Below, piece after piece: positions 16,551 to 33,814 of a stretch of 33,814 nt of DNA (position 1 is its first letter; each line of letters opens with the position of its first letter). The DNA lies in contig NZ_WKYV01000040.1 in assembly GCF_009677585.1 (NCBI RefSeq), positions 1 through 33,814 of the forward strand. Direction: 5' to 3'. Origin of the DNA: Lactonifactor sp. BIOML-A5. GTDB taxonomy: Bacteria; Bacillota; Clostridia; Lachnospirales; Lachnospiraceae. The translations under genes and the position numbers were made by a program. Below the pieces are notes generated by a model. It ran no database searches, was not told where the DNA came from, and saw only the letters and a list, made by a program, of their open reading frames with translations.

Positions 16551-19500
16551 TTATCTGAATACCTTCCATTTCTTCATCACTTCACGGATGGCCTTTTCTG
16601 ATCCCTCCTTATCCTTGCCGTAATCGCCGGCTATTTTCTTGATTTCCTGTATCTCCTGATAAGTAAGAGAAAACGTATACTCAGGTTCTTCCTTCTTCAG
16701 TCTCTCTTCCAGTTCGCTTCTGCTCCAGTGAGAATCTTCTGCCAGTGTATCCAGATATTCCAAAGAAATAAATCGAACATCTGCTTCCTCTCCAGGCTCT
16801 TGCTTTGTGTCTGCGACCGCTATATGCAGCTCAGCAACGCAGGTCTTCCCGAATCTGTCGGTAGCTGTCACTTCTCCTGTGTATTCTCCAGGCAGGAGCC
16901 CCTGTTCCAGGGATACCGTCTCACCGTCAGTATCCTTTATTTCTGTCAGCATAAGGTATCTGCGTATATCCACAACCTGCCCGTCCCTGTCAAGAACACC
17001 GGCAGCTTTTGCCATATCATCCTCTTTGTCTTTTACTGACACATAATTTAGCAGCACCTCCTCTGATACTCTGCCTTCTCCGGCTTCATCAGTTGTTAAA
17101 ATCACCCGTTTTGGAACTGTAATTACGGGAGGCTCATTGTAAACCACAGAAACCGGCATTTCACAGAATGATACATTTCCAGCTGAATCTTCGGCTTTGC
17201 ACAGCAGAAAATCTGTAATCCTCTCCCCCTTCTCCATTCCCCGGTCCTGATAAGTATCAAGAATATAGCTGTCCGGGAGTCCCTGCACAAACTCTTGATT
17301 TTCTCCCTGATATCCACTTTTGGTTCTGCCATAGGAGATTTGTGTGATCTCGATTTTATCTGTAATGTCCCCATCCTCAGTATCCATCCCCCGCAGTATC
17401 CCCTTCTTAAGCTGAGACGCCCTCACCTCTTCCCCTTCATAAAACTCATTTCCGCATACTTCCAGAGAGGGAGCATAATCCCATATTGCATAGAGAGTAA
17501 TCTCTCTGATTCCTTCTGCCTCAGTAAATGGATACATGGATAACAGCCTTTCAGGAAAAACTTCCTCCATAGGATACAATAGTTTTCCGGTCTCGCTATT
17601 GGTTCTCACAAGTGACCAGCCCACAAAAGCAGCCTGTTCTCTCTCAAACTCATTGTCCCGAATCCTGTATTTTTTGTTTACAGAGACAACCTCAGAACTC
17701 ATCACCCCGGTTCCTCCGTTTGCATCATAACGTATTCTGCAGCCAGAGGAATTCAGGTATACACTATAGGCATAGGGTGTCAGTTCCAGGCTTCCGCTTT
17801 CCAAGACAAGGAGTTTCCCGGACACAGTATCCTGCGTTTTTTGCTCAAGAGAGTATTTGTCTAATTCGCTGTCTCCCGGCATAAGGGTATAGTGGGCCAG
17901 CACCCTGCCTTGAAAGGTATCTTCTGACGCCATCTGACATACAAAGCGCTCTATGCTTCCTGTCACTGTAATAAATCGTGAGGGAGCCAGAAAAACTTCC
18001 TCTTTTACCCTGGGATTCCCATATGCCTTCAGCGTTCCGTCCAGATAAACAGACCCTCCTCTTACTGCGGAATTATTCTCCAACGTGCTTTTGGACAGCT
18101 CACAGGCGGCACCATTCAGGATACAGATTCCGCCGCCGTCCTTTGTCCCGGAATTATGTTGTAGAGCACCTCCAGAAACAGCAGTTCGGGAGGCGGAGGA
18201 TGTACTGCAGATTCCTCCTCCCTGTGACGCCTGGTTTCCTGTGACTTCTCCTCCTGTCATGGTAAAGGCACCCTGGTTAAAGATGCCTCCGCCTCTGGAG
18301 GCCGTATTATCTTTTATGCATCCGCTTTCCATGAGGAATTCTTTCTTATTTGTGATTCCACCTCCATCACTTCCACGGTTGGAGGATACGGTGCCATTCT
18401 TCATGGTATACTTTCCTTCGTTCAAAATCCCCGTGTTTTTGTTGCTGCGGACATTGCCTGAACAAAACAGCAATTCTCCAAAATTATATATTCCGCAATG
18501 ATTGCCGTATATCTCCGGTGTCCCCTCCAGCTTCGCATATCCGTTGGGATACAGCAAGAAGCCATATCTGTAATTCTCATGTATTGAGACATTCGTAACG
18601 CTGAATTCGGCATATTCGGAAGACGCAACCCCATATTGATTTCTGTAGAATTCTCCTCCTGTCAGAATGCCCCTGGCTCCTGTTCTTTTCCCCTCATAGG
18701 TTCCGGCTATGTATAATCCGGTATCGTTTTCATAAAACTTCCCTCCCGACACCTGAACGGTTCCATAGCTTCCTACCCCATCATGATAATTCCCTCTCAG
18801 ACTGCCCGACTCTACAATAATCAGACTCCGGACCTCCCCATAGATTCCATGGCCGATAGAATTCTGAATGCAGACACCGCTTCCCTTTACGCACAGTGTA
18901 CCTCCCGTTTTTACAAAAAGGTTGCTGGTAACATCGTCCGCCACCTTATCTTTTTGTCCATCAAATACCAGGCTGCCTTCCAGGGATACATTTCCGGTAA
19001 TGACCCATCGCTTTAAGCCAGTGCCATATATGGTACATCCTGAGCTATTGGGGGCGGTCGTTACCGTCATAGTCTTACCGATTCTAAGTTCCGCTTCATT
19101 TGCAATACTTGATACCGTCAGCCGGACAGTTGTACAGTGGCCTGATCCTGCTGCCTGCTGCAGAGTCTTAAAGCTTCCTATTCCTGCCGTAGTACAGTAA
19201 CCGCTTCCATTCACATAGTTATTGCTGTCCACCCATGTGTTTGTGGCAATATACCCATTGTCTTTGAAGTAATACCAGTCATACACACCATTGTAAGCCA
19301 GATACTGCCAGCAGTTTTTGTAGTACGCTGTAGTACTGTAGGCATACCACCATCCGGTACTGTCACTGTTCCATCCTATCTTGTAGGATGCACGTGCCGA
19401 TGCCAGGAGCTTTTTCGCCTTCTGGAATTCTGTTTTCAACTCTTCCTTGGGCGCTTCTTCTTTGTCTGCTTCTTCTTTGTCTGCTTCTTCCCTGGGAGCT

Positions 19501-20255
19501 ATATCCCCGGGCGGCTGCTCTTCTTGCTTCCAGGGCAGTTTTGTCTCCCCCTTCATAAAAGAAGTAAATCCTGCCAGGATCCGTCTTTTTTTTGCCTCGT
19601 CCGGAAGCCGAATCAAAACCTTTGTCAAAGGAATCAGAACCTCACGCTCCAGGGCAGACATTCCTTCCTCCTCCGGCTCTTCAGCAAAATATGTCCTCCA
19701 GCACATGTAGGTATCTGTCAGGGATTTCAGCTGGGAATACATCTCTTCCCCCGACTGATAAGCCTCTGTCATTTCTGCCAGGGCTGCCTCAGCCTCAGCA
19801 AATTCTGTTTCCGCCTCCTCAGTCTGGATGCTTTCATGATACATCTGTGCCACATACAGGCAGGTATAAAGCTTTTCCTGCAGTTCTTCTCCTGCTCCCT
19901 GCCGGGTGCTATTTTCCTCTAAGCCTTCCTCTGAAAGTCTGAGAATATTTTCTCTTTCGGCACAGATTGCAAAGTAAAACGTATAAGCCCTTAAAAAGAA
20001 GTATCTCTCAGCTCCGGACCGTGACAAAAAGGCGGTTCTTTTGTCTCCTTCCGGCAGCAAATGAAAGGATCTTATATTTTTCTCCAGATAATCGGCTGTC
20101 TGAATAAATGTTTTCTCTTTCACTATGCTTTCCTCTGCCTCGTCTTCTTTATTGCTCTCACTCTCAGCCTCCATCCTTTCTGTGGTTTCCTGCCTTTGTG
20201 CGCTGACCGGAGATGCCGCTGTCAAGAAAACGCCTGCCAGAACAAGACTAAGCAT
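16551..20255 (-). CDS. Large secreted beta-helix surface protein (1234 aa)
   Basis: An exported protein of unknown function ending the Tad-like locus. Order of parts: a signal peptide to about residue 19 (VSA|Q); an acidic helical region (40-290) with KEEAD repeats; one choline-binding-like cell-wall repeat (293-342, GWW, WYYFKDNGYI); a right-handed beta-helix rich in GGG-I and N-rich turns (390-830); an InlB-B/Flg_new-like module (842-925, YDANGGTG, FVGWS, ITLYAIWD); then one or two DUF5011/Ig-like domains (930-1160, TEDGDITDK, DSAGNVS); and a charged helical tail. There is no LPXTG, so wall contact would be non-covalent. ATG 20255 has AAAGG 8 nt upstream but gives a signal peptide without basic residues. 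The frame stays open to a CTG at 20315 behind AAAGGAGG, which would add a basic n-region. Adhesin or polysaccharide-binding roles are plausible only. Confidence 0.8.
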   Translation of the reverse strand: MLSLVLAGVFLTAASPVSAQRQETTERMEAESESNKEDEAEESIVKEKTFIQTADYLEKNIRSFHLLPEGDKRTAFLSRSGAERYFFLRAYTFYFAICAERENILRLSEEGLEENSTRQGAGEELQEKLYTCLYVAQMYHESIQTEEAETEFAEAEAALAEMTEAYQSGEEMYSQLKSLTDTYMCWRTYFAEEPEEEGMSALEREVLIPLTKVLIRLPDEAKKRRILAGFTSFMKGETKLPWKQEEQPPGDIAPREEADKEEADKEEAPKEELKTEFQKAKKLLASARASYKIGWNSDSTGWWYAYSTTAYYKNCWQYLAYNGVYDWYYFKDNGYIATNTWVDSNNYVNGSGYCTTAGIGSFKTLQQAAGSGHCTTVRLTVSSIANEAELRIGKTMTVTTAPNSSGCTIYGTGLKRWVITGNVSLEGSLVFDGQKDKVADDVTSNLFVKTGGTLCVKGSGVCIQNSIGHGIYGEVRSLIIVESGSLRGNYHDGVGSYGTVQVSGGKFYENDTGLYIAGTYEGKRTGARGILTGGEFYRNQYGVASSEYAEFSVTNVSIHENYRYGFLLYPNGYAKLEGTPEIYGNHCGIYNFGELLFCSGNVRSNKNTGILNEGKYTMKNGTVSSNRGSDGGGITNKKEFLMESGCIKDNTASRGGGIFNQGAFTMTGGEVTGNQASQGGGICSTSSASRTAVSGGALQHNSGTKDGGGICILNGAACELSKSTLENNSAVRGGSVYLDGTLKAYGNPRVKEEVFLAPSRFITVTGSIERFVCQMASEDTFQGRVLAHYTLMPGDSELDKYSLEQKTQDTVSGKLLVLESGSLELTPYAYSVYLNSSGCRIRYDANGGTGVMSSEVVSVNKKYRIRDNEFEREQAAFVGWSLVRTNSETGKLLYPMEEVFPERLLSMYPFTEAEGIREITLYAIWDYAPSLEVCGNEFYEGEEVRASQLKKGILRGMDTEDGDITDKIEITQISYGRTKSGYQGENQEFVQGLPDSYILDTYQDRGMEKGERITDFLLCKAEDSAGNVSFCEMPVSVVYNEPPVITVPKRVILTTDEAGEGRVSEEVLLNYVSVKDKEDDMAKAAGVLDRDGQVVDIRRYLMLTEIKDTDGETVSLEQGLLPGEYTGEVTATDRFGKTCVAELHIAVADTKQEPGEEADVRFISLEYLDTLAEDSHWSRSELEERLKKEEPEYTFSLTYQEIQEIKKIAGDYGKDKEGSEKAIREVMKKWKVFR
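19453..19491. repeat. 15-nt tandem repeat inside the surface-protein gene
   Basis: GCTTCTTCTTTGTCT is repeated twice and then partly (19453-19467, 19468-19482, 19483-19491). It encodes the KEEAD repeats. Copy changes would stay in frame. Confidence 0.8.
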
Positions 20256-20278
20256 CCTGATACCCTTTCCTTCCTTTC

Positions 20279-20656
20279 TCAGCCTCTTTTTTCTAAGATA
20301 ACCGCTCTTCTGCAGGTAATCACCCCCTCCTTTCCTGTAAAATGCCTGTATTTTTCTTTCAGTAAAAGTTCAAGCATTCCTTTCTCATAATCTACATTCA
20401 TAACGGACACCTCTATATCTCCAAAGCTTTCTATCTGGCAGCAGAGATTAAGCAGGAAATCAGCCACCAGCTCTGTCTCATTCCTAATCTCATAGGTTTG
20501 ATCCGCATATAATATTTCCATGGACTATTCGATAGCAATGGCCGCACTTTCTTCCATCTCACTTTTTCGAATACTCCTTCCATGGACTGTAAGCACTGCA
20601 GCGCCGGTTAAAACAAGAAGGAACAGTGATAAAAATGATATAACAGCTGTTTTCAT
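20279..20656 (-). pseudogene. TadE-like pseudopilin gene split by an in-frame TAG
   Basis: From ATG 20656 (AAGGAG upstream) 43 codons encode MKTAVISFLSLFLLVLTGAAVL, one membrane helix, and a helical stretch ending AIAIE. Then comes TAG (20527-20525). The same frame continues with TCC ATG and 80 more residues (MEILYADQTYEI...RRAVILEKRG) to TGA at 20279. The joined 125-residue product has the pseudopilin layout: short N-terminus, one helix, small soluble domain. The second half alone has an ATG at 20521 but no ribosome site. TAG is one change from CAG (Gln). The call is therefore one gene with a nonsense codon; two coupled small genes or amber readthrough are alternatives. The neighbour upstream has the same architecture. 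Confidence 0.6.
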
Positions 20657-20665
20657 ACTTTCTCC

Positions 20666-21001
20666 TTATCTGGCATATCCTCTGATCTCATGTACCTCTG
20701 ATTTGCTGTGGAGAATCCCCACTGAATACGTATATTTTACAACCACCTCGCACATCCTGCGGTTAGGAATAATTTCCCTTACCTCAACCGGTTCCAGCTC
20801 ATAACCCAGTCTGTCGGCTTCTCTGTACAGGCTGCTTATTACCTCCGGATTATAATTACTGTTCTCGATCTGGCTGACTGCGGAAGCATGAAAATTTCTG
20901 GCATTCTCAGCTGCAATGCTGCCGGTGACCAGCGAAGTGCCCATAAGGGATAAGAGAAGCAAAAGTATGATTCCTATAAAATATCCTGGAAGTCCTTTCA
21001 T
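20666..21001 (-). CDS. TadE-like pseudopilin (111 aa)
   Basis: A small protein with a short N-terminus (MKGLPGY), one membrane helix (FIGIILLLLLSLMGTSLVTGSI, about 8-29) and an external domain of about 80 residues. This layout matches minor pseudopilins or TadE/TadF-like proteins of Tad systems, though no strong sequence signature is visible. GGAGGG lies just upstream of ATG 21001. It is 9 nt upstream of the split pseudopilin gene and may share its role in assembling a pilus or secretion pseudopilus. Identification rests on layout and neighbours. Confidence 0.55.
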   Translation of the reverse strand: MKGLPGYFIGIILLLLLSLMGTSLVTGSIAAENARNFHASAVSQIENSNYNPEVISSLYREADRLGYELEPVEVREIIPNRRMCEVVVKYTYSVGILHSKSEVHEIRGYAR

Positions 21002-21016
21002 ATCTCCCTCCTGTGT

Positions 21017-21121
21017 TTAATAGGATAAGCTCTCCGCTATCCACAAAAATACAGCTACAAGGCATCCGCCTAAAATTGCGATAGCTGCCGACTGACAATA
21101 TTCTTCGATAATTTCTCTCGT
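21017..21121 (-). CDS. Mini membrane protein (34 aa) with ACG at the expected start
   Basis: The frame reads (M)REIIEEYCQSAAIAILGGC followed by LVAVFLWIAESLSY. It parallels the 49-residue protein at 22240-22389, which starts MKEILEEYGG and then a membrane helix. At the homologous start codon this frame has ACG (21121-21119) preceded by GGTGGA, and no ATG, GTG or TTG occurs in frame upstream before the previous stop region. One T-to-C change would explain it. The EEY motif before a helix recalls Flp pilins (G-x4-EY), but no cleavage glycine is present. It may be a broken or very weakly translated gene. Confidence 0.45.
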   Translation of the reverse strand, partial: TREIIEEYCQSAAIAILGGCLVAVFLWIAESLSY

Positions 21122-21138
21122 AGTTCCACCAACTTTCC

Positions 21139-22233
21139 TTATATTTTTCTCACAAAGATACGGCAGCTGCTGTTATCATTTACTGCTTCTTTGTACATGG
21201 CTTCAGCTGCTGCTGCCTTATCCTCCCGATCCGCCACAAGCTGCAGGCAGAAATCCCCCACATTGGTTGCAGCCTGCAGGAAACATCCCTCGTACTGCGC
21301 AGGACACCCCAATAGCTCAACACTGCCCTTTAGCTTCCCGCAGTTTTTAAACGTGTTTCTGCAGTTCCTGACACCGGAAGGGATGGGACCTGTCAGTTCC
21401 AGATTCCCGCAGTCTTCATACATGCCCTCAATGTCTTTGGCCCCGCCAGGGATCCCGGCCGCCCTGAGCTGCCCGCATCCTTTAAACGTATACCGGAAGC
21501 TTTCAGCAGTCTCAGGCATCCAGGGGATTTCTTTCAGACTTCTGCACTGGTAAAACCACCCGTCCATACGCTTTATCTCGATTCCCTTCTCAATCCTGCA
21601 GGCCTCAATGGTTTCTCTCATCTCTTTCCAGGGAACCGTATCCTGATTCAAAGACTTCACTCTCCCCTTTCCCTCCAAAGACAGAAAAAGAGTCTCATCC
21701 TCTTTTTTATAGAGCCGTGCCCTCACATCTTCCCCCTCCTCTCCCATCTCCCATTCTTCTATAAGAGCCGTGATCTGAGGGTCCGCTTTGCGGCTTTGTA
21801 CCTGTATGTATCCGGATTTCCAGGTCTCCATGTAGTCTTCTCCTATAAGGACAAAACGAATTCTGATTACTCCTGGTTTATCCCCCGAAATCTCATAACT
21901 GCCATTGACTTCTGTACCGTCTTCCAGGTAATACCTCACCTGTTCCTGCAAATCAGGGCTTGTACCATGACTTGCCTCTGTAACCATATCCTGCAGTAAT
22001 ATAGAATCCCCAATTTCCAGCACCTTATTTTCCACCGCAAGCTTCGGACTTCCTTTTTTACTGAGCTTCTGCAGGATCTCTCGTGTCTCGCTGGTGTCCG
22101 TCACACCTGAAGTCACCGAAAAACCTCCCAACAGCTTGAGAATTCCTTCCGGATACAGCAGAATAACAGCAAAAAGTCCTGCAATCACTGCGGCCGCAGC
22201 CATTCTTCCGTGTTCCCCAAACAACTGTCTCAT
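21139..22233 (-). CDS. Membrane-anchored BspA-like (DUF285-type) protein
   Basis: A 364-residue protein with an N-terminal membrane segment (about 11-27, MAAAAVIAGLFAVILLY). An external beta-rich Ig-like region follows (60-150). After it come leucine-rich BspA/DUF285-style repeats (about 205-315) with the pattern F-x2-C-x2-L: MDGWFYQCRSLKEIP, YTFKGCGQL, MYEDCGNLELTGPIP, NTFKNCGKL. Such repeats occur in surface proteins that contact other cells or matrix. ATG 22233 lies 6 nt after the preceding mini-gene, with GGGAGG inside that gene's end, so they are coupled. It could be a tip or minor component of the Tad-like apparatus; that is inference. Confidence 0.65.
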   Translation of the reverse strand: MRQLFGEHGRMAAAAVIAGLFAVILLYPEGILKLLGGFSVTSGVTDTSETREILQKLSKKGSPKLAVENKVLEIGDSILLQDMVTEASHGTSPDLQEQVRYYLEDGTEVNGSYEISGDKPGVIRIRFVLIGEDYMETWKSGYIQVQSRKADPQITALIEEWEMGEEGEDVRARLYKKEDETLFLSLEGKGRVKSLNQDTVPWKEMRETIEACRIEKGIEIKRMDGWFYQCRSLKEIPWMPETAESFRYTFKGCGQLRAAGIPGGAKDIEGMYEDCGNLELTGPIPSGVRNCRNTFKNCGKLKGSVELLGCPAQYEGCFLQAATNVGDFCLQLVADREDKAAAAEAMYKEAVNDNSSCRIFVRKI

Positions 22234-22239
22234 ATCATT

Positions 22240-22389
22240 TCAGCCTCCCAGTGTAAGTCTTCCGAACACAGCAGTCAGAACTCCTAATGGGCCCTCCGGT
22301 TCCATGCACCATCTGCCGGCTGTCAAAAGTACGATTGCGACAAGACATCCGGCTATTGTTCCTCCATATTCTTCCAATATTTCTTTCAT
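22240..22389 (-). CDS. Mini membrane protein (49 aa), Flp-like layout
   Basis: It encodes MKEILEEYGGTIAGCLVAIV then LLTAGRWCMEPEGPLGVLTAVFGRLTLGG. AGGAGG lies 5 nt upstream of ATG 22389, so it is clearly translated. One helix begins right after an EEY motif, recalling the (G)x4-EY of Flp-type pilins, but there is no visible prepilin cleavage glycine and no prepilin peptidase gene nearby. It sits 9 nt after the TadBC-like gene. It is a probable paralogue of the mini-gene at 21017. It could be a structural subunit or a small membrane adaptor. Confidence 0.6.
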   Translation of the reverse strand: MKEILEEYGGTIAGCLVAIVLLTAGRWCMEPEGPLGVLTAVFGRLTLGG

Positions 22390-22398
22390 ATGCACCTC

Positions 22399-23805
22399 CT
22401 AAATCATTCCCTTAGTAATATTCATCAGGCCCACCAAAAGGAGCCCCATGTCTGTTATCATTTTTATTGAGCCTGTAACCATAGGGATAAGTACCAGCAT
22501 CCCCACGCCTGCAAGAGAATCTTCATTGGAAAGACGCTCCGCCTTGTCCATCAGATGATGGTTCCTCTCTACCAGAACCGATATCTGCTTTTCCATATCT
22601 TCCCTGTCTCCCGCTGCCCACATAGAGTAAATCAATCTCAAAGCCGACTGCACGTCAGGCAAATCAAGCCATGGCATAAAATCCAGGAAGGGTTCGATAC
22701 TGTTTGGATTTTTTTCAATAGAAACGAGCATCCTGGACAGTTCTTCTCTCAATACAAAGGGAGCTTTCCCAAGGGATTTTTCCAGCGCATTATGAACATT
22801 TTCTGTCTGCATCAGGAGCGAGAGATCCATCAGCCAGATCGGAAACGACTTATCCACCTCTTTTATGATTCGTTTTTTTGCCAAACGATGCCTGATTCCC
22901 GGCCAACACCACAGCAGTACGGATATGGTTCCAAGCAGCAGCAGCCCAGTCCGTGATTTCAGCCACACAGCAAGAGCCGCGAGGAGTGTCAAAAGCAGAA
23001 GTTTAACGGGCACATAACGTGATGCTCCCTTTCTGTCATTGGTTTTCAGATACTCATACTCTTTGCGAATCTCCGCCTCCTGTGCAGCATCCTCCTTCAG
23101 CCAGGCTGCCTGAAGCTTTTTTTGCCCCCAGAACCATATAGTAATTCCCGATATCATGTAGGCAGCTGTCATGCTCTGGGAAAGAGGGTGATCCAATGCC
23201 ATAAACTCCTTTGGGAGCATGATCATAGATATTTTGCAGATTCCGGCAGAAAGAAGGAGAGAGATGAAAATGTTCCGTCTTATATTTCTGCGCTGCTGGG
23301 CCAGCTCATATACACGCTCCACCCACAGCTGCCGATCCAGTAAAAGTATATGGAGGGCATTGGAAAAATCTCCCCCTATCTCCTCTGCCTTCACGAGAAA
23401 TTCATGGGTTTGTATCAGCCTCCTGCAGGAATATGAATCCTCTATATCCTGAAAGGCTGCATGATAAAGATTTCCTTCCTCTGTCTCATTTTGTATTTTG
23501 TGTACCGCAGACTGGATGACTTTATGCATTTTCCCTTCCGGAAACACCAAAGCAGCATCTTCCAGTGAGGTTAGTATTTTCGGAATCCTTTTAAATGAAT
23601 ACAGCATCTGCTCCAGATAATTTGCAGTATCCTCAAAGTCTTTCTCTTCACAGGCATTTTTACAGGAGTTCAATATAATAAAGGGTGACAGCAGCAAAGC
23701 GTAGAGGGTGACAGCAGCAATATAACCAATCTTCAGCCCATACCAAACACCCAGCAGGACAATACCGGCGAAAGACAGCAAATATTTTTTCCAATTATTT
23801 TGCAA
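22399..23805 (-). CDS. TadB/TadC-like inner-membrane platform protein, probably a fusion
   Basis: A polytopic membrane protein of the T2SS-F/Tad platform class. It has two halves, each with a cytoplasmic helical T2SF-like stretch followed by membrane helices. The first stretch is about 55-175 (NYLEQMLYSFKR..LTSLEDAALVFP, then EEIGGDFSNALHILLLDRQ). The second is about 315-435 (FPIWLMDLSLLMQTENVHNALEKSLGKAP, then NHHLMDKAERLSNEDSLAGVGML). Canonical systems encode TadB and TadC separately at about 300 residues each, so this looks like a fusion. The first standard start is TTG 23805 with no ribosome site. The frame is open 30 codons further, back to 23895, and that stretch reads like real protein (KNLRFWHFLNPSHLAAEVSRYGY). 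ATT 23895 has GAGAGG 8 nt upstream and would follow the cpaF end directly. Confidence 0.65.
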   Translation of the reverse strand: MQNNWKKYLLSFAGIVLLGVWYGLKIGYIAAVTLYALLLSPFIILNSCKNACEEKDFEDTANYLEQMLYSFKRIPKILTSLEDAALVFPEGKMHKVIQSAVHKIQNETEEGNLYHAAFQDIEDSYSCRRLIQTHEFLVKAEEIGGDFSNALHILLLDRQLWVERVYELAQQRRNIRRNIFISLLLSAGICKISMIMLPKEFMALDHPLSQSMTAAYMISGITIWFWGQKKLQAAWLKEDAAQEAEIRKEYEYLKTNDRKGASRYVPVKLLLLTLLAALAVWLKSRTGLLLLGTISVLLWCWPGIRHRLAKKRIIKEVDKSFPIWLMDLSLLMQTENVHNALEKSLGKAPFVLREELSRMLVSIEKNPNSIEPFLDFMPWLDLPDVQSALRLIYSMWAAGDREDMEKQISVLVERNHHLMDKAERLSNEDSLAGVGMLVLIPMVTGSIKMITDMGLLLVGLMNITKGMI

Positions 23806-23888
23806 AGAAAATGTATACCCATATCTGGAGACCTCTGCAGCCAGATGGCTGGGGTTTAAAAAATGCCAAAATCTTAGATTCTTTTTAT

Positions 23889-24935
23889 TTATAATTCATT
23901 CATCCTCTCTTTTGAAAGAAAAGGGTCATCAATGCCCGCAAAGGAAAACTTCCTTTTAATGTCCGGCGGAAGCGACCTGTTTATAATACTTCCCCCCTCT
24001 GCCATCATAACTATCTTATTTTTTCCATTCTCCCTGCTGTAAAAACAGATCTGATCCATATACCTGCGGATTCCCTCTCCCAAATCAGCTCCCTTTCTTA
24101 TGAGAATACCTGCGTCTACAAAGGAAAAAACATCATTTTCAATCCTTTGAGGAGATACGGTATCCTTCATCATATTTTGAATCCGGTCCGGTACCTTATT
24201 TACATCATCTGTGTGCAGGGTTGTGAGGCAATGGGTCCCTGTGCTCATAGCCTCCAGCAGATATTTCACTTCTGTGCTTCTGGCTTCAGACAGCATAATC
24301 CACTTGGGATTCTGCCGCAGGCAGCTTTTGATGGCTTTTGTATAGTCAAAAAACTCTTCGTTTACTTTTAATTCCACGCAGTCCTTCTGTGGATTAATGG
24401 AACGATAATGGATTTCCAGATTGTCTTCTATGGTAATGACTCTCTCATTTTCAGGAATATACTTTGTCAAAAACTTTAATAATTCCGTTTTCCCGGAACC
24501 AGGAAGTCCTGTCATGATTAGATTCATATGCGCCCGAATACAATTTTCCAGAAATACAAGCATCTCTGGTACACAATAGCCATCCTTCAGCATGCTGTCT
24601 TCGGTCAGACGTCTGGCCGGAGATGTCTTTCGGATAGAGATAGAAGTTCCTGTGCAGGCCACACTCTCGTGGATAATACTGACACGCAGAGTTTCTGTCT
24701 CCGCCTCCAGCAAATTATTAAATTTGTTAAAGCTTTTGCTGACTACGTTGCTGATTCTTGTGGCAAACTGACTGACAAAATCTTCGGAAAGTTTTATGTC
24801 TGCCCGGTATCTTCCTCTGTACAGATGATCGATCCAGACATCTATCCCATTGAAATTGATGTCTGTCACCAGGTCATCTCTCACATAGGGCAAAAGTTCT
24901 CCGAAATTCTCCGGCTGAAACGTCCATACATTCAA
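23889..24935 (-). CDS. cpaF: CpaF/TadA-type secretion ATPase
   Basis: A hexameric motor ATPase of the type II/IV secretion superfamily, driving assembly of a Tad-like pilus or pseudopilus. The 348-residue protein has Walker A GLPGSGKT (143-150), a Walker B region KWIMLSEAR (211-219, catalytic Glu 217) and the His box TLHTDD (239-244). It is shorter than typical CpaF (about 400 residues or more), with a reduced N-terminal domain. ATG 24935 has GGAGGT 10 nt upstream. It is the first clear gene of the locus and overlaps or abuts the TadBC frame downstream. No TadZ/CpaE or CpaB precedes it; only a 48-codon fragment is present. Confidence 0.85.
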   Translation of the reverse strand: MNVWTFQPENFGELLPYVRDDLVTDINFNGIDVWIDHLYRGRYRADIKLSEDFVSQFATRISNVVSKSFNKFNNLLEAETETLRVSIIHESVACTGTSISIRKTSPARRLTEDSMLKDGYCVPEMLVFLENCIRAHMNLIMTGLPGSGKTELLKFLTKYIPENERVITIEDNLEIHYRSINPQKDCVELKVNEEFFDYTKAIKSCLRQNPKWIMLSEARSTEVKYLLEAMSTGTHCLTTLHTDDVNKVPDRIQNMMKDTVSPQRIENDVFSFVDAGILIRKGADLGEGIRRYMDQICFYSRENGKNKIVMMAEGGSIINRSLPPDIKRKFSFAGIDDPFLSKERMNEL

Positions 24936-24953
24936 GATCTCACCTCCGACCTT

Positions 24954-25100
24954 TTATCTTGCATTTTTAAAAAGGACTGTGTTTCCTGCACTACTTTGAT
25001 ACAATGCACCATTTTCTTCTGTCGGCGAGCTTTCGTTAACGAGCAGGGTATCGTTAACGAGCACGTAGGATGAAAGAGCTGTCGTATCAGAGCACTCCAT
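24954..25100 (-). CDS. 48-codon reading frame before cpaF, possible gene remnant
   Basis: It runs from ATG 25100 to TAA 24954, 18 nt before cpaF. The product (SYVLVNDTLLVNESSPTEEN and a short tail) matches no family I know. It has no ribosome site. A duplicated 18-nt unit (VLVND and LLVNE) lies inside it. It may be the tail of a lost upstream Tad gene joined to unrelated sequence, or noncoding. Confidence 0.25.
   Translation of the reverse strand: MECSDTTALSSYVLVNDTLLVNESSPTEENGALYQSSAGNTVLFKNAR
25033..25063. repeat. Two copies of TCGTTAACGAGCA, period 18
   Basis: Copies lie at 25033-25045 and 25051-25063, and each contains the palindrome TCGTTAACGA. They lie upstream of cpaF and could be regulator sites for the Tad-like locus, or the result of a local duplication. 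Confidence 0.5.
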
Positions 25101-25115
25101 GTCTGTCCGAAAATT

Positions 25116-25478
25116 TTAGTTTTTTTCCCATGTTGAGTAAATCACATTACGACGTTTAAAGGCTTCATAGCCACCTTCCATAATGTCAACAATTTGTTGA
25201 TGAGTTTCTTTAGAGTCAATCGCCTTCAATCCATTCCTCTGGATTAAAGACAATGGATCGTCTTCCCTCAAAACCAGCGCATGGTCAAAGTTTTGTAAAA
25301 CATCCCAAGCGGTTTTCTGAATTTCATTACATGGGAATACCATATTGACTCCCGTGTTGACAGTATCTTCAACTTCAATCGTCAGTACTCCCGTATGCCC
25401 ATGCAAATACTGAGCTTCGCCCTTGAACCCATAGAACCTGTGTGCATACTGCAGGTCTAATGTAGTAAAACTTCTCAT
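25116..25478 (-). CDS. 6-pyruvoyltetrahydropterin synthase/QueD-like protein
   Basis: A 120-residue protein of the tunnel-fold PTPS/QueD family. The zinc ligands are present as H13 (YAHRF) and the HGH pair H26/H28 (YLHGHTG), and NFDHALVL (63-70) matches the family. The usual catalytic Cys four residues before HGH (C-x3-HGH) is Ala22 here, so it may not make carboxytetrahydropterin. No queC, queE or queF is nearby. ATG 25478 follows AGGAG at 7 nt; an ATG five codons upstream overlaps this ribosome site and is not used. It begins a run of small redox genes unrelated to the Tad-like locus. Confidence 0.7.
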   Translation of the reverse strand: MRSFTTLDLQYAHRFYGFKGEAQYLHGHTGVLTIEVEDTVNTGVNMVFPCNEIQKTAWDVLQNFDHALVLREDDPLSLIQRNGLKAIDSKETHQQIVDIMEGGYEAFKRRNVIYSTWEKN

Positions 25479-25573
25479 AATTATTCTCCTCATATTTATA
25501 TTTACGGGTGGTTTTGCTCCCGTATGCGCCTATAGTTAAGCTTGCCGAATTGCCTGTGATCGCTTTTTTTGTG

Positions 25574-26137
25574 TTATTGAATTCGCTTAGTTATAAAGCT
25601 CAGAAAAGCATTCGCTTGTTTTTCAAAGTATGGATAGCTTGCTTTAAGTGTCAGCTTGCCATCGCTGTCAAGTTGTTGCATAGCGTTAGGAATAGTGAGA
25701 CGAGGTACGTTCATAACATCCATGTTCAAAAAACTGATGAGTGTAACAAGATGGTCCTGGGCCATGCTTGTCCCGGTCATTGCAGGAGAAATCCCGCTTA
25801 TGGCGGTAGGTTTTCCTGCAAGAACCTGCGGCTCTTGATCGCTGATCGGGCGGGATAGCCAGTCGATGAGGTTCTTCAAAACGCCCGGGAAAAAGTGATT
25901 ATATTCCGGCGTGAAAAACCATATCCCATCTGCGGACTTCACTGCATCACGAACGCGTTTTACAGCTTCAGGTGCGGGGTATTCAATGTCCTGATTCATT
26001 AATGGTACGTCCTGATATTCAAGCAGTTCAAAATCAGCCCGATCCCCAATGAGTGCTTTTGCTGCTAATGCCAATTGTCGGTTATATGATTCTTTTCGCA
26101 TAGAACCAACAATGGCTACTATCTTTATTTTTTTCAA
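25574..26137 (-). CDS. NADPH-dependent FMN reductase family protein
   Basis: A 187-residue flavodoxin-fold quinone/azo/chromate-reductase-like enzyme. The FMN phosphate loop GSMRKESYNRQLA lies near residue 10, and the family motif PEYNHFFPGVLKNLIDW near 80-96. The start is taken as TTG 26137, which has GAGGAG 9 nt upstream and is followed directly by KKIKIVAIVGS. An upstream in-frame extension to 26170 has no ribosome site. It follows the pirin gene by 29 nt, so the two are probably cotranscribed. Substrate unknown; quinone or flavin reduction under oxidative stress is plausible. Confidence 0.82.
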   Translation of the reverse strand: MKKIKIVAIVGSMRKESYNRQLALAAKALIGDRADFELLEYQDVPLMNQDIEYPAPEAVKRVRDAVKSADGIWFFTPEYNHFFPGVLKNLIDWLSRPISDQEPQVLAGKPTAISGISPAMTGTSMAQDHLVTLISFLNMDVMNVPRLTIPNAMQQLDSDGKLTLKASYPYFEKQANAFLSFITKRIQ

Positions 26138-26166
26138 TATGATGTGCTCCTCTCTGTATCGTATCC

Positions 26167-27006
26167 TCAATAAGAAATTTTATCTTGTATAAAAGTACCT
26201 TTCTTCAAATCATCAAAAGCCTTATTCAATTCTTCTTTAGTGTTCATGACAATAGGACCACCCCAAACTACCGGTTCGTCCAGCCGTTTTGAACTTATGA
26301 ATAAAACTTGGGCTTTTTCATCTGTAGCCTTTATTTCTACTTGGTCACCGGAGGTAAGTTTTACCGCCGTCTTTTCCCTTACCAGATCACCTCCGATATA
26401 TGCGTCCCCTAAAAGGGTAAACACCATTACAGAGCGCACATTTTCTGTACTCAAAACAATTGATGCATTTGGGTTGATGTGTAAATCGTAATAATTAAGG
26501 GGAAGATAATTGCTCATATATCCTTTTCTTCCCTCAAATTCGCCCGCCAACAGTCTTAGTTTACCCCAATTAAACTCTATTTCCTCAATTTCTGAGTTTT
26601 TGATGCTGTGATAAGCTGGCGGAGCCATTTTATCCTTTGCGGGAAGATTCAGCCAAAGCTGTACCCCAAGCATCCGCTCGGCAGCTGGCAATTTTTCTTC
26701 ATGCATAATACCGGAACCGGCTGTCATCCATTGAACTTCTCCATCACCAATCGTATCCTCATTCCCTAAGCTGTCCTTATGAGTCATAAATCCACGATAC
26801 ACATAACTGATTGTCTCGATACCTCTGTGTGGATGCATGGGAAATCCCGCTGTGTAATCATCCGGATTTGTGCTATCAAAGGAATCGAGCATTAAAATCG
26901 GATCATATTCCTGTACAGTTCCGTTTCCCAAAACCCTGACCAAACTAACTCCGGCTCCGTCCTTCGTTCTATAACCTCTAACCTGTTGACTAATTTTTCT
27001 TTCCAT
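26167..27006 (-). CDS. Pirin family protein
   Basis: A 279-residue bicupin. The metal site is complete: H58 and H60 (FPMHPHRGIETISYV), H102 and E104 (SGIMHEE). The C-terminal cupin of the pirin family follows (about 175-265). Bacterial pirins are linked to quercetin dioxygenase activity, redox sensing or binding partner enzymes; the role here is not known. ATG 27006 has AAGGAG 9 nt upstream. It lies between an extradiol dioxygenase and an FMN reductase, which suggests aromatic or quinone handling. Confidence 0.9.
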   Translation of the reverse strand: MERKISQQVRGYRTKDGAGVSLVRVLGNGTVQEYDPILMLDSFDSTNPDDYTAGFPMHPHRGIETISYVYRGFMTHKDSLGNEDTIGDGEVQWMTAGSGIMHEEKLPAAERMLGVQLWLNLPAKDKMAPPAYHSIKNSEIEEIEFNWGKLRLLAGEFEGRKGYMSNYLPLNYYDLHINPNASIVLSTENVRSVMVFTLLGDAYIGGDLVREKTAVKLTSGDQVEIKATDEKAQVLFISSKRLDEPVVWGGPIVMNTKEELNKAFDDLKKGTFIQDKISY

Positions 27007-27062
27007 ATACCGTGTCTCCTTGCTTTAATATATTTGAAGCATTCCCGCTTGCAACGCTTGTA

Positions 27063-27833
27063 TTATTCCCAAAGATAACTTGTCATTGTTAATGACCCCA
27101 GTTCACAGGATTTATTATAAACACTGATCTTATCATCTTCATTCGACGCTCCGAGTACATATAAAAGAGGATAAAAATGGTCCGGAGTCGGAACTGCCAA
27201 CTTTGCACTATTACCAATTTCATTGAATTTCAGGATATTATCATTATTCTTATTTAAAATGTTTTCATAAATATATTCATCAAATTCATATGCCCAATCA
27301 AAGCCCTCGTTTTCTTTGTTCCAGTCAACCAGTCTTAAATTATGGACAATATTCCCGGTGCCAAACAGAAGAACTCCCTGTTCCCTTAAGGCTCTTAATT
27401 CCTTACCAATTTTGTAATGTGCTGCGGGAGGAGCATCAGCATCTATGCTGATTTGAAATACAGGAATTTCTCTATCCGGATGCATGTGAACCAGTACTGA
27501 CCATGTCCCGTGGTCAATTCCCCAAGAGTTATCATATTCCGTTTTCCTTGAAATCAGCTCCTTAGAGATTTTAGCCATACCGGGTGAACCCGCTGTGTTG
27601 TATTTAACTTCATATAATTCCTTAGGAAAACCGTACATGTCATATATAGTTTTGGGGGTTTCCTCGTTCATAATTTTGGTCCCTTTAGTATACCAGTGAG
27701 CCGAAACAGACAATATCACCTCAGGTTTTGGTATCCTTTCAGCTATACTTCTCCAGGTTCTTGTATAATTATTATCTTCAATGGCATTCATCGGTGACCC
27801 ATGTCCTACAAATAAAACCGGCATCTTTGACAT
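27063..27833 (-). CDS. LigB-type extradiol dioxygenase (YgiD/DODA family)
   Basis: A 256-residue class III extradiol dioxygenase related to 4,5-DOPA dioxygenase. Visible signatures are GHGSPMNA (10-17), SAHW (44-47), DHGTWS (107-112) and PTPDHFYPLLYVLGA (215-229). The metal and active-site histidines H11, H46, H108 and H219 are all kept. An O2-dependent ring-cleaving enzyme in an anaerobe is odd; it may act as oxygen enters, or on another substrate. The ATG at 27845 directly abuts AAAGGA, so the ATG at 27833 is the likelier start. Confidence 0.83.
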   Translation of the reverse strand: MSKMPVLFVGHGSPMNAIEDNNYTRTWRSIAERIPKPEVILSVSAHWYTKGTKIMNEETPKTIYDMYGFPKELYEVKYNTAGSPGMAKISKELISRKTEYDNSWGIDHGTWSVLVHMHPDREIPVFQISIDADAPPAAHYKIGKELRALREQGVLLFGTGNIVHNLRLVDWNKENEGFDWAYEFDEYIYENILNKNNDNILKFNEIGNSAKLAVPTPDHFYPLLYVLGASNEDDKISVYNKSCELGSLTMTSYLWE

Positions 27834-27891
27834 AGTCTTACACATTCCTTTCTTTAGATTAATACTGAAACGTAATTTGCTACTAGACAGA

Positions 27892-29148
27892 TTATTTTAT
27901 TGATTCAAATAGTGACTTAAACTCCTCCTGATGCCGGATGAAAACATCAACAAGCACTGGATCAAAGTGACTTCCTTTACTTGAACTGATAATTTCGATG
28001 CTCTTTTCGTGCGAAAAGGCCTCTTTATACACTCGCTTGGAGCGGAGTGCGTCGTAGACATCAGCAAGCGCCATGATGCGTGCGCACAGGGGTATATTAC
28101 CCCCCTTAAGACCTTTATTATAACCGCTGCCATTCCACTTCTCATGATGGTACAGAGCGATATCCATACCCATTTTGAGAAAATCGTTCTTATCGTATTG
28201 CTGTCCGACTTTAGAAAGCGTGTCATACCCTATCTGCACATGGGACTTCATAATTGTAAACTCATCTTCAGTGAGCTTGCCGGGTTTCAGCAAAATACCG
28301 TCGGGTATGCCAACTTTCCCGATATCATGAAGCGGACTGGCTTTATATATTGTTTCAATAAATATGTCAGTAATAGCATTTGCATATTCGGTGACAGATC
28401 GTGCTTTTTCGGCAAGCAATCGGCAAAAGCTGGCTGTCCGTTCGATATGTGCACCTGTATCGTCATCCCTTGATTCTGATAGTTTAATCAGTGCATAGAT
28501 AGTCGCCATTTGAGAAGATGAGATTTCTCGAACTTTTTCTTCCACCAGCTGCTCAAGACGTTGACTGTATTTTTCAAGTTCGTCTTCGACCTTTTTCATC
28601 TCGGTAATATCTTGAATCGTCCCATAAAAAAGAATAGGAATACCTTTAGCGTCTGTCTTGGAATAGAATCTTAAATGCACCCATTTTATTTTCCCGCTTT
28701 TCATCAGCAAACGATACCTGGTTGTCCAAGGCTTTTGCGCAACAAACATCTCCTGAAATATCGCGGTCGCTTGCTCCAGATCGTCTGGATGGACAATCGA
28801 AAAAAACAAATCAGAAGTTGCGGGAGTTGAGCTGTCAATTTCAAGAATGTCATACATCGACTTTGACCAAGTCATGCTACCCGAAGTAGGATTTATATCC
28901 CAACGACCCAACAATGCAATTTCCTGCGCTTCAGCAAGCACTTCGCGGCTGTGCGCTAATTCTTTGTTGATCTGCTCAAGGCGCTTTGCTATTGAGGAAT
29001 GATCCAGAATTAATTTCGTCAGAAGTTCCGTTTGATTATGGTAGTCAATCTCCTTTGCGAAGCTTTCTAACGCATAGGCTTTGAGGTCGGCATTTAAACA
29101 CAAGCTATTTGATAATATGTCCTGAAGCATTAAATATCGATTGTTCAT
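27892..29148 (-). CDS. PAS-HD-GYP protein, probable cyclic-di-GMP phosphodiesterase
   Basis: A 418-residue cytoplasmic protein. It has an N-terminal helical region (1-70), a PAS domain (75-185), a short coiled coil (185-212) and an HD-GYP domain (215-410). HD-GYP metal residues are present: H234, HD 274-275, H303, HH 334-335 and D363. The GYP motif itself reads GYN (342-344), a partial degeneration that may affect activity or partner binding. The start ATG 29148 overlaps the stop of the upstream metallo-beta-lactamase-fold gene by 4 nt (ATGA), with GGGAG 7 nt ahead. The coupling suggests that this protein's PAS or HD-GYP output depends on the oxygen-type sensor beside it. Confidence 0.86.
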   Translation of the reverse strand: MNNRYLMLQDILSNSLCLNADLKAYALESFAKEIDYHNQTELLTKLILDHSSIAKRLEQINKELAHSREVLAEAQEIALLGRWDINPTSGSMTWSKSMYDILEIDSSTPATSDLFFSIVHPDDLEQATAIFQEMFVAQKPWTTRYRLLMKSGKIKWVHLRFYSKTDAKGIPILFYGTIQDITEMKKVEDELEKYSQRLEQLVEEKVREISSSQMATIYALIKLSESRDDDTGAHIERTASFCRLLAEKARSVTEYANAITDIFIETIYKASPLHDIGKVGIPDGILLKPGKLTEDEFTIMKSHVQIGYDTLSKVGQQYDKNDFLKMGMDIALYHHEKWNGSGYNKGLKGGNIPLCARIMALADVYDALRSKRVYKEAFSHEKSIEIISSSKGSHFDPVLVDVFIRHQEEFKSLFESIK

Positions 29149-29969
29149 ATGACTTCTCCCGACAACAGACAATCGATACCGACGTTTTCGATTGAGCGTA
29201 AGTGCCGAATAATTGTTTTTACATCCTCTTTTGTTGAGATAACGCTGCCATGCTGAGAGGCTATTCTTTCAATATCCAGTTTTTCGATAGTATTTAGGGC
29301 GTTTGACAGCGCACTGTTTGATGTCATGATAATCTGATGGAACTTCACGATTCCTTTGACAGGGCATTTAGTTAAATTCGAGGAACACTTTTTCAGATCC
29401 CGGCATTCACTGCAAGCCTCGCCCAATTCAAGCATCAATGTCCATCGGGCATCAAAGCTGCCGAACAAATCACTTGAGAACAGTGTTTTTGTTTGCGTAT
29501 CATATGTAACAAAGCTACCCGGGTGATGGCAATAGGGGGTTGCATAAAATTCCAGCCGCCTGCCTGTAGAGAATTCATAATGATTGCCCAATTCGCGAAA
29601 ATCGAGTTTCTCGGTTTTAGCTGAATAATAATGAATGAAGACGTTGTTCTCTGAATGGGAGATGATTCTTAGCGCATCATTATTTATGATTGCCTCTAGC
29701 TGAGGTAAGCTCCCACAAAGATCTGGGTCATAGTGTTGGTAAATCAATCTCGTAATCTGGGAAGGTTCTATTCCCGTTCTTAAAATTTTCAGCATGACAG
29801 TGCTGAAATCATCACGGTTCCCACCGTCAATTAAAGCAGCTTCATCTCCCTCAATAATTAGATAGGGATTGCAGTGAAGACCTCTGTTTTCATCAGAGTA
29901 ACCGACCCAGTAAACACCCTCGGCAATATCTACCGGTTCTTTTTCTAAAGATTCCATTTTAATTTTCAC
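29145..29969 (-). CDS. Metallo-beta-lactamase-fold di-iron protein, oxygen-sensor (ODP/flavodiiron) type
   Basis: A 274-residue MBL-fold protein related to the N-terminal domain of flavodiiron proteins but without the flavodoxin domain. The di-iron ligand pattern is visible: H79-x-D81-x-D83, H148/H149, D167 and H240. Stand-alone versions (ODP) bind O2 and sit beside signalling proteins, which fits the coupled HD-GYP gene. A loop carries four cysteines, C186, C189, C195 and C202, absent from the plain fold. The start is GTG 29969 with AAGGAGG 8 nt upstream; it overlaps the end of the response regulator frame by 11 nt. Confidence 0.8.
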   Translation of the reverse strand: MKIKMESLEKEPVDIAEGVYWVGYSDENRGLHCNPYLIIEGDEAALIDGGNRDDFSTVMLKILRTGIEPSQITRLIYQHYDPDLCGSLPQLEAIINNDALRIISHSENNVFIHYYSAKTEKLDFRELGNHYEFSTGRRLEFYATPYCHHPGSFVTYDTQTKTLFSSDLFGSFDARWTLMLELGEACSECRDLKKCSSNLTKCPVKGIVKFHQIIMTSNSALSNALNTIEKLDIERIASQHGSVISTKEDVKTIIRHLRSIENVGIDCLLSGEVI

Positions 29970-30513
29970 GGTTTATTCCTCCTTGTTGGCAATATAACTT
30001 TTCATATCTTCTATAACTAATCTTTGCCCAGCCAGAATCAATGAGCTCTTCTTTTGTTCTGCCTGTAATTTGTTCAAACGCTGAGTTAATTTTTATATTA
30101 TTCTTATCAGAGCGTTTGGGATCACGGCTGTGAGAAATCGCTATGCCAATAGGTGCTTGATCGAAAACCATGTCAAAGGTAAGAGCCTGTTCGTCAATTT
30201 TTTGCTCCAGTGCTTGCTGCGCTTGCAATAGTGCTACGTGAACATCGATACTGGCTTTCAATGAATCCATATGAATTGGTTTACGAATATAGTCTACGGC
30301 ACCAAGTTTTAAGCCCTTGATTTCGTTGTCCAATTCATCATAATTAGTCAATATTATGGTACGAAGATTCCGAAACCGCTCATCTTGATTGAGTGATTCA
30401 AGAACCTGAAACCCGTTCATATTGGGCATATTGAGATCGAGTATGAGCAAGTTAATTTCATCATGCTCCGAAAGCACGCGCAAAGCTTCCACACCGTCGC
30501 AAGCAGTCAACAC
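29959..30513 (-). pseudogene. Response regulator (receiver-PAS), broken at both ends
   Basis: The frame keeps the back part of a receiver domain: LLILDLNMPNMNG with phospho-Asp 26, and YIRKP with Lys 78. A helix and the start of a PAS domain (about 112-168) follow. The beginning of the receiver, with its acidic pocket, is missing. The frame is readable back to about 30555 (ILSIGSTFANYVAENTV) without a start codon and then meets an IS-end-like sequence. Near 30012 the PAS reading shifts: the other frame gives EDMKSYIANKEE and TAA, which continues the PAS pattern after a presumed 2-nt loss. So it is truncated at the front and frameshifted at the back. It was probably once the sensor-regulator of the downstream MBL and HD-GYP genes. 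Confidence 0.65.
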
Positions 30514-30554
30514 GGTATTCTCTGCGACATAGTTGGCAAAGGTACTACCTATTG

Positions 30555-30606
30555 ATAAAATGCACCGCTCAAATCAAATCGTTAAAATTTGCACCGCTTC
30601 TGCACA
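30555..30606. mobile_element. Relic resembling an IS21-family terminus
   Basis: TGCACCGCT occurs at 30561-30569 and 30590-30598 (period 29), with TGCACACC at 30601-30608. Repeated AGCGGTGCA motifs starting from TGTGCA are a hallmark of IS21-type ends. No istA or istB gene remains. It lies exactly where the response regulator lost its start. Recognised by pattern only. Confidence 0.4.
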
Positions 30607-30782
30607 CCCCCTGGGTTTATACCCAAATCCTAAATTTGTTTATGTGTTGCGCCCATTGTTTTAATACAATGCACACTCCTGTCGCGACAACAGGTGATGG
30701 TGTGCATTTTTTATATTTTCAGTCGGCATTTCGCCTGCGAGCAGCATTAAACACTATCACCCAACTCTTGATCGAGCAGACT
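30607..30782. other. Noncoding scar between the IS relic and the PAS-GGDEF gene
   Basis: It contains small inverted repeats (TGGGTTTATACCCA near 30613-30626, CATTGT/ACAATG near 30653-30672) and a terminator-like hairpin. I see no gene. Confidence 0.45.
30670..30706 (+). terminator. Orphan plus-strand terminator
   Basis: TGCACAC and GTGTGCA, with an inner CCTGT/ACAGG pairing, form a long hairpin followed on the plus strand by TTTTTTATATTTT. No plus-strand gene precedes it, so it is probably left from a deleted gene or mobile element. Confidence 0.55.
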
Positions 30783-31769
30783 TCAAAATTTTGCATCAGA
30801 CACTATTTGATTTTTCCCGTTTCTTTTCGCAGTGTACAATTTCGTGTCTGCGGAATGAACTAGCTCAGTAATAGTTTCGTTATTATACTGACTGGTTCCT
30901 CCGCTGATGGTTACCCTTAAACCGTCAACAAAGTTATAGTCCTCAACAGCTTGTCTGATCCGCTCAGATATTTTACTGGCTACAGACAGGGTTGTATTTG
31001 GAAAAATCACCATGAATTCTTCGCCGCCGTATCTTCCAGCAAAGTCAGTGCCTCTGATGCTTTTTGTTATAATGGACGCTAGATCAACGAGCACTTGGTC
31101 ACCATAGACATGCCCCTTGCTGTCATTGACTTTCTTGAAATCATCAATGTCAAAGAGAGCAATTGATAATGGGCTGCTTGTCCGGCTTGTTTCTGCTATT
31201 TCGGCCTTTAGGTGCTCTATTAATGTTCTGTGGTTGCCGATCTTTGTAAGCCCATCAATCGACGATATCTCGGAAAGAATTCTGTTTTTATACTCCAGTT
31301 CCAGCTGTGTCTCTTTCTTTTCGGTGATATCAAACACGATACCCGCTAGGAATGCAGGCTTGCCATTATCATATTGAGTTATTCTTCCACGGTCATAATA
31401 CCATTTGAAAGTTCCGTCTTTCGCTTTTATGCGGTATTCGATTTCGTACACATCTGCTTTGCCGTATAAGTGGTCGCGCATTGCGTCCATGGCCTTTTGA
31501 AAATCCTCCGGATGCAACTTATCTGTAAAGAACTGATAAGTAACATGTTCCGGAATCTCGCTTTTATCATAACCGAGCGTGGTCACTTTGAGCGGATTGA
31601 AGGTAACCTCATTAGTTTTGATGTTCCAATACCAATGACCAAGATTACCTGTCCATGCGTATTCAAGCCTAGTTTCCTGTTCTTTCTCATTCAGCAACTC
31701 CTGTGTTAGCATCTCGAGGCTTTTTATTCTGTCCAGTAGCTGTTCTCTTGAAAACTCTGTGTAATCCAC
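30783..31769 (-). CDS. PAS-GGDEF diguanylate cyclase
   Basis: A 328-residue soluble protein that makes cyclic-di-GMP from GTP. It has an N-terminal coiled coil (5-35), a PAS domain with PAC motif (about 38-152) and a GGDEF domain (165-325). The active-site loop reads GGEEF (248-252), a functional variant. The inhibitory site RxxD is present as RGTD (239-242), exactly five residues ahead. The start is GTG 31769, with AGGAGG 7 nt upstream, 2 nt after the stop of the upstream GGDEF/HD-GYP gene, so the pair is an operon. Confidence 0.92.
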   Translation of the reverse strand: MDYTEFSREQLLDRIKSLEMLTQELLNEKEQETRLEYAWTGNLGHWYWNIKTNEVTFNPLKVTTLGYDKSEIPEHVTYQFFTDKLHPEDFQKAMDAMRDHLYGKADVYEIEYRIKAKDGTFKWYYDRGRITQYDNGKPAFLAGIVFDITEKKETQLELEYKNRILSEISSIDGLTKIGNHRTLIEHLKAEIAETSRTSSPLSIALFDIDDFKKVNDSKGHVYGDQVLVDLASIITKSIRGTDFAGRYGGEEFMVIFPNTTLSVASKISERIRQAVEDYNFVDGLRVTISGGTSQYNNETITELVHSADTKLYTAKRNGKNQIVSDAKF

Positions 31770-31771
31770 TT

Positions 31772-33760: not shown

Positions 33761-33814
33761 TTGGCACCACCATAAATGAAACTATGCAGGCTATAGGGTA
33801 TTGAACTTGTTAAT
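33761..33814. other. Unidentified sequence at the right edge
   Basis: It precedes the truncated sensor gene. The frame through it has a TAG and does not look like dCache sequence, so a rearrangement junction probably lies near 33755-33765. The source is not recognisable from 54 nt. Confidence 0.35.

Follow-up and report, generated by a model that had tools for sequence, protein, structure and literature searches.

A stretch of 33,814 nucleotides from Lactonifactor sp. BIOML-A5 (NCBI RefSeq assembly GCF_009677585.1, contig NZ_WKYV01000040.1, positions 1 to 33,814; this whole stretch is the window) carries one copy of what is quite likely a Tad-derived, type IVc-like system of Lachnospiraceae and their kin, a putative filament or pseudopilus. 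The conserved order comprises a TadA-type ATPase, a two-halved platform protein, four mini-pilins (A, B, C and D) with a common N-terminus, two short membrane proteins, E and F, present in nearly all loci, and usually a large protein of the Sec type. The window holds eight such genes, tightly spaced in a single direction on the minus strand, from 24935 to 16551 (Table 1). This bears out the close one-way packing described in a first-pass annotation of the same DNA, which had also listed the 49-aa protein, the BspA-like protein, the 34-codon frame and the 1234-aa protein, all of which are present.

Recurrence and distribution

Relatives were collected by a search with 24 database homologues of the platform; it returned 60 loci, all of which were used, making 61 with the window, some of them shortened by contig ends. 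The loci come from Lachnospiraceae and other Clostridia, with Lachnospiraceae, Roseburia, Eubacterium, Ruminococcus, Clostridium and the like in their record titles. The nearest is Lactonifactor longoviformis (locus L001), with 91% identity across 12.6 kb. ATPase and platform are found in 61/61 loci, E in 60 (the contig of L043 stops earlier) and F in 59 (L043 again, and L057, which has no F), while relatives of the large protein were found in 42. The commonest order is A-ATPase-platform-E-B-C-(D)-F, with B-C-D placed ahead of E in six loci. The recurrence that the first-pass annotation had suggested looking for is thus there: the same gene set, with no TadZ or peptidase in the DNA covered for the 61 loci. 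Because of this recurrence, together with ratios of nonsynonymous to synonymous substitution (dN/dS) of 0.06–0.19 for the eight genes, the set is more than a chance assembly of frames, and the window genes are real.

Within the family to which L. longoviformis belongs, 299 genomes were sampled, and 35 of them have the platform. A phylum-wide draw gave it in 1 of 398 genomes, namely the centre genome itself, a weak negative as at most three candidates were scored per genome. In Eubacterium oxidoreducens (G020, contigs C11 and C20) there are two platform copies, one with an internal TAA.

The ATPase and the platform

The window ATPase matches T2SSE (PF00437, E 9e-28), with the TadA and VirB11 models matching below cut-off, and its matches in the PDB include archaeal FlaI, CpaF and VirB11. 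The profile comparison with canonical TadA reaches 99.8% (hhalign), the canonical TadA hidden Markov model (HMM) matches 60 of the 61 loci, and the Walker A motif is intact in all 59 copies that cover the region. In a tree, ATPases of the mini-pilin loci fall on one side of a branch, with canonical TadA and PilB/PilT on the other (99/96). The TadA-family ATPase of a Tad or type IVc pilus is accordingly present, and what had been called a CpaF-type ATPase is TadA-type.

The platform has no T2SF match in Pfam or NCBIfam, and no significant sequence match in the PDB. Its N-terminal half aligns with canonical TadB at 88% (E 3e-6, hhalign), to be read against the 91% (E 1e-6) of TadB with TadC. The predicted structure resembles PilC, EpsF, OutF and SpoIIIAB, each half matching T2SF-type folds with modest scores. 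The two T2SF units of a Tad pilus are present here as one fused protein, and separate TadB and TadC genes are absent. The TadB/C-like platform in two halves recognized in the first reading therefore stands, as does its T2SF similarity, the lack of which had been named as fatal to a Tad-derived machine. The frame is open to 23895, where there is no ATG, GTG or TTG, and the extra N-terminus also occurs in homologues. In both Lactonifactor genomes the start lies in an ATT/ATA region devoid of these three codons, ATA being common to both.

A family of mini-pilins

An HMM built in five rounds from pilin A of L001, using no information on position, finds 199 frames, at least one in every locus. Place and length sort them into 57 of type A, 47 of type B, 55 of type C and 37 of type D; three remain untyped, having no standard start nearby, and the B frames of both Lactonifactor are among these. 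An earlier motif scan, alternative starts included, had given 148 matches on the operon strand against four on the opposite one. Type A sits directly ahead of the ATPase in 57 loci; those without it are the window and three loci whose contig begins too late. In L. longoviformis the whole gene is found at L001 8748–8927. Type B has only 30–40 residues. The starts are clearly marked: A begins with ATG in 51/57 cases and follows a Shine-Dalgarno match in 55/57. It has an aromatic residue or His at position 8 in 57/57. Type D has in addition an Ig-like region, with PKD and Ig hits that stay below threshold, and in the window as in L001 and L002 it continues into an extension of leucine-rich repeats (LRR), for which the window protein gives an LRR_5 match below cut-off (E 0.002).

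To place the family, 30 Flp_Fap pilins were drawn from the phylum. Compared by hhalign with their mature part, A reaches 89% (E 2e-6), D 56%, C 29% and B 2%; as a yardstick, the mature parts of Flp_Fap and of canonical Flp1 from carrier genomes give 62%. Among 60 shuffled versions of A, the 30 shuffled by column stay at or below 3% and the 30 shuffled by block at or below 37%, with a best E of 3.5e-4. As its score exceeds that of these controls, A is probably related to Flp, and the N-terminus common to all links the other three types with it. The place of the Flp pilin in a Tad pilus would thus be taken by type A, in 57 loci and not in the window, its Pfam score lying below cut-off; A is likely the major pilin. 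The 49-aa protein, the 34-codon frame and the BspA-like protein, the last through its N-terminus, belong to one family that is probably related to Flp pilins, a kinship missed when the locus was first described as having no pilin. The 34-codon mini-gene put forward at that time does exist as a frame, but has no ATG, GTG or TTG start: ACG stands there in the window and likewise in L. longoviformis, neither genome offering a standard codon.

What is missing, and the closest known systems

Profile searches of the DNA of the 61 loci found no A24 prepilin peptidase, no canonical TadZ, and none of canonical TadB, TadC, Flp1 and TadE, each of which was recovered in 8/8 canonical Tad loci of carrier genomes (L061–L068). 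This agrees with the first-pass annotation, which saw no TadZ, peptidase or canonical Flp. RcpC/CpaB was not noticed among gene calls, no CpaB profile search having been made. Just upstream of A, 12 loci (L038, L039, L040, L042, L043, L045, L046, L047, L049, L051, L058 and L060) have a frame of about 180–250 aa whose beginning, rich in GTT/GTS, looks like a worn P-loop. This is possibly a diverged TadZ, but a profile comparison with canonical TadZ shows no similarity (0.2%). A separate canonical Tad locus is present elsewhere in the L. longoviformis genome.

With Tad (type IVc, Flp) pili the system shares a TadA-type ATPase, a TadB-like platform half, small Flp-related pilins and an operon read in one direction. 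It differs from them by its fused platform and its four types of mini-pilin, by the lack of A24 peptidase, TadZ, TadB, TadC and canonical Flp1 and TadE in its loci, and by pilins without Glu5. The SpoIIIAB, GspF and PilC platforms are akin to the present one in the predicted fold of the halves, but show no significant sequence match with it in Pfam, NCBIfam or the PDB. MSH pili use conventional pilins. Like the present loci, those of MSH carry no prepilin peptidase, and peptidases are exchangeable, according to passages of Denise et al. (2019, PMC6668835), which place MSH pili, unlike the present system, in a separate clade near type IVa pili. The tad-like loci of Gram-positive bacteria, Clostridia such as Clostridium bolteae and relatives included, are portrayed by Imam et al. 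(2011, PMC3244431) as lacking a recognized pilin signal motif, as here, while having tadV, tadZ and rcpC. In our loci the A24 and TadZ profiles matched nothing. A literature search found no description of the present system, which looks like an undescribed Tad-derived variant rather than a canonical Tad locus.

Another operon was seen in the genomes of L001, L059 and L002 (L070 5693–9669, L071 5795–9561 and L072 8909–12833). Behind a lipoprotein-like gene, it encodes an ATPase of PilT type, a single GspF-like protein and four small proteins of one helix each, whose N-termini look like those of pilins but have no obvious Gly cleavage site.

With or without a leader

Two accounts describe type IV filament assembly as including a step in which a prepilin peptidase processes the leader (PMC6916266, PMC10191384). 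In the mini-pilins only 8–9 residues precede the hydrophobic helix, an in-frame start codon upstream is wholly absent for 123/196, and a longer alternative with a Shine-Dalgarno-like motif exists for 12/196. We tentatively entertain the view that they are made directly in mature form, without leader and prepilin peptidase, balanced N-terminal charges replacing the salt bridge of Glu5; residues 1–9 of A, together with the amino group, have net charge 0 in 43/57. There is about an even chance, on the other hand, that MKxxxEEYG is a class III leader of 9–10 residues, cut after its conserved Gly by the prepilin peptidase of another locus, an explanation opposed solely to the leaderless version of the mechanism. 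Gly does stand at position 9 or 10 in 184/196 mini-pilins (A 57/57, B 42/47, C 50/55, D 35/37), and there is a hydrophobic tract; a class III signal peptide has a leader ending in Gly or Ala, such a tract and Glu5. But an acid at +5 after the Gly is found in 12/196 only (A 0/57), while Glu5 is present in 28/28 Flp_Fap and 7/7 Flp1 pilins; the acid in 10/37 D proteins speaks against the leaderless version, and passages of one source have Glu5 'often, but not always' (PMC10191384). The residue that follows Gly is another obstacle to cutting there, being limited to P, K, R, D or E in 27/37 D and 8/57 A.

The tests of register disagree. In hhalign the EEYG of A sits on E5-Y6-G7 of mature Flp_Fap and the leader columns stay unmatched, against cleavage, whereas ungapped similarity of A to Flp_Fap prefers the register cut after G9 (13.6 v 3.7), as ungapped scoring does in six of eight comparisons, including all four types against Flp1 of the same genome. 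Borrowing an enzyme would be feasible: PF01478 was found in 20/20 genomes checked and in 35/35 carrier genomes of the family sample, MSH loci, none of which has a peptidase, may borrow one (PMC6668835), and published leaders are 6–51 residues long (PMC6916266). However, since 295/299 family genomes have PF01478, its presence in carriers does not decide how the pilins mature. The present system is conserved in 35/299 family genomes, and its pilins, of 30–66 aa, lack Glu5 and begin with the mature residue or close to it. Whether a filament requires a leader, its cleavage and Glu5 can therefore be put to a direct test in it.

E, F, the large protein and a possible machine

Neither E nor F has significant profile similarity to canonical TadE, so that the label 'TadE-like' initially given to both is not supported by sequence; the model of E does have a predicted pilin-like outline. 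Nor is the second of these presumed pseudopilins an intact gene in the window: 20525–20656 and 20279–20521 are two frames of a single F gene, unbroken in L. longoviformis and split here by the in-frame TAG. The large protein has, by eye, a Sec-type N-terminus, and its gene is usually last in the operon. The beta-helix once ascribed to it has no Pfam match in the window protein, and a match just above cut-off in the L005 relative.

In the machine that we propose, the ATPase would drive the platform to polymerize A, the other three pilin types serving as minor subunits; D, with its Ig-like domain and, in some species, LRRs, would lie with E and F at or near the tip, and the large protein would leave by Sec and, carried or bound on the cell surface, serve adhesion. 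The short pseudopilus of the first reading, or a machine that exports or displays this protein, remains an inference. A type II secretion-like pseudopilus that takes the large protein across the cell wall would suit the terminal position of its gene and the outline predicted for E; we consider it unlikely, as against it stand the Sec-type N-terminus that the large protein itself possesses, its occurrence in 42/61 loci, and the nearly constant presence of A, similar to Flp. Still less probable is a static membrane complex in which the small proteins are structural anchors and no filament is made. Type B, which barely leaves the membrane, would fit it, but each locus has four paralogous pilin-type N-termini and, to our knowledge, pairs of T2SSE ATPase and T2SF platform are known only as assemblers of filaments or pseudopili. 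The filament or pseudopilus would likely give gut Lachnospiraceae one more surface appendage, in which Ig-like and LRR proteins and a large exported protein take part.

State of the copy in the window

Similarity to L001 begins at 24979, within the last codons of A. Beyond, nothing in the L. longoviformis genome matches window segments 25000–29500 and 29000–33814, while a positive control, 20000–24900, matches it at 92%. With A lost and F broken, the window copy is partly a remnant and probably does not now build the structure. A deletion remnant, named at the outset as the finding that would overturn the minimal machine, is in this sense partly what we have, but the system of which it is a remnant is the compact one, rather than a full canonical Tad locus. 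The machine is indeed Tad-derived, its minimality in the window being partly local loss, that of A and of an intact F; the lack of TadZ and peptidase is no such loss.

The copy could equally well be dying, with no present function. Besides the lost A and the TAG, its B and platform genes have no standard start codons and its flank is foreign to L. longoviformis. Yet those starts are missing in L. longoviformis too, an error of sequencing or assembly is possible, and dN/dS against L001 is low for all genes: 0.094 for the ATPase, 0.095 for the platform, 0.18 for C, 0.14 for D, 0.13 for B (on 32 codons only), 0.064 for E, 0.071 for F read across its TAG and 0.19 for the large protein, neighbour genes giving 0.018 and 0.055. 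Because of these low values we take constraint on the window genes to have been recent; the damage may be new, or a matter of assembly.

Table 1. Features of the mini-pilin locus in the window
Feature	Position	Strand	Basis or occurrence
Pilin gene A remnant (final codons and stop)	24967..24979	−	blastn block and sequence comparison with L. longoviformis
TadA-type ATPase, 348 aa, TTG start	23889..24935	−	61/61 loci
Platform protein in two T2SF-like halves; start other than ATG, its codon uncertain	22399..23895	−	61/61 loci
Mini-pilin type C, 49 aa	22240..22389	−	mini-pilin HMM family
Type D, 364 aa: pilin-type N-terminus, Ig-like region, BspA-like LRR extension	21139..22233	−	HMM family and domain hits
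Mini-pilin type B, 34 codons; ACG at start position, no standard start codon	21017..21121	−	
E protein (111 aa); long helix at the N-terminus and small beta-sheet predicted	20666..21001	−	60/61 loci
F gene, in-frame TAG at 20525–20527	20279..20656	−	F in 59/61 loci
Large secreted-type protein, 1234 aa, no Pfam match at E ≤ 0.01	16551..20255	−	relatives in 42/61 loci

The flank, 24980–33814, encodes a QueD-like protein, an FMN reductase, a pirin, LigB and several GGDEF, HD and PAS proteins. Two occurrences of the motif TCGTTAACGA lie near the junction at 24979. The frame at 25116–25493 closes with 29 residues that match the C-terminus of the TrlF ATPase family (E 7.6e-8), although the remainder is QueD-like.

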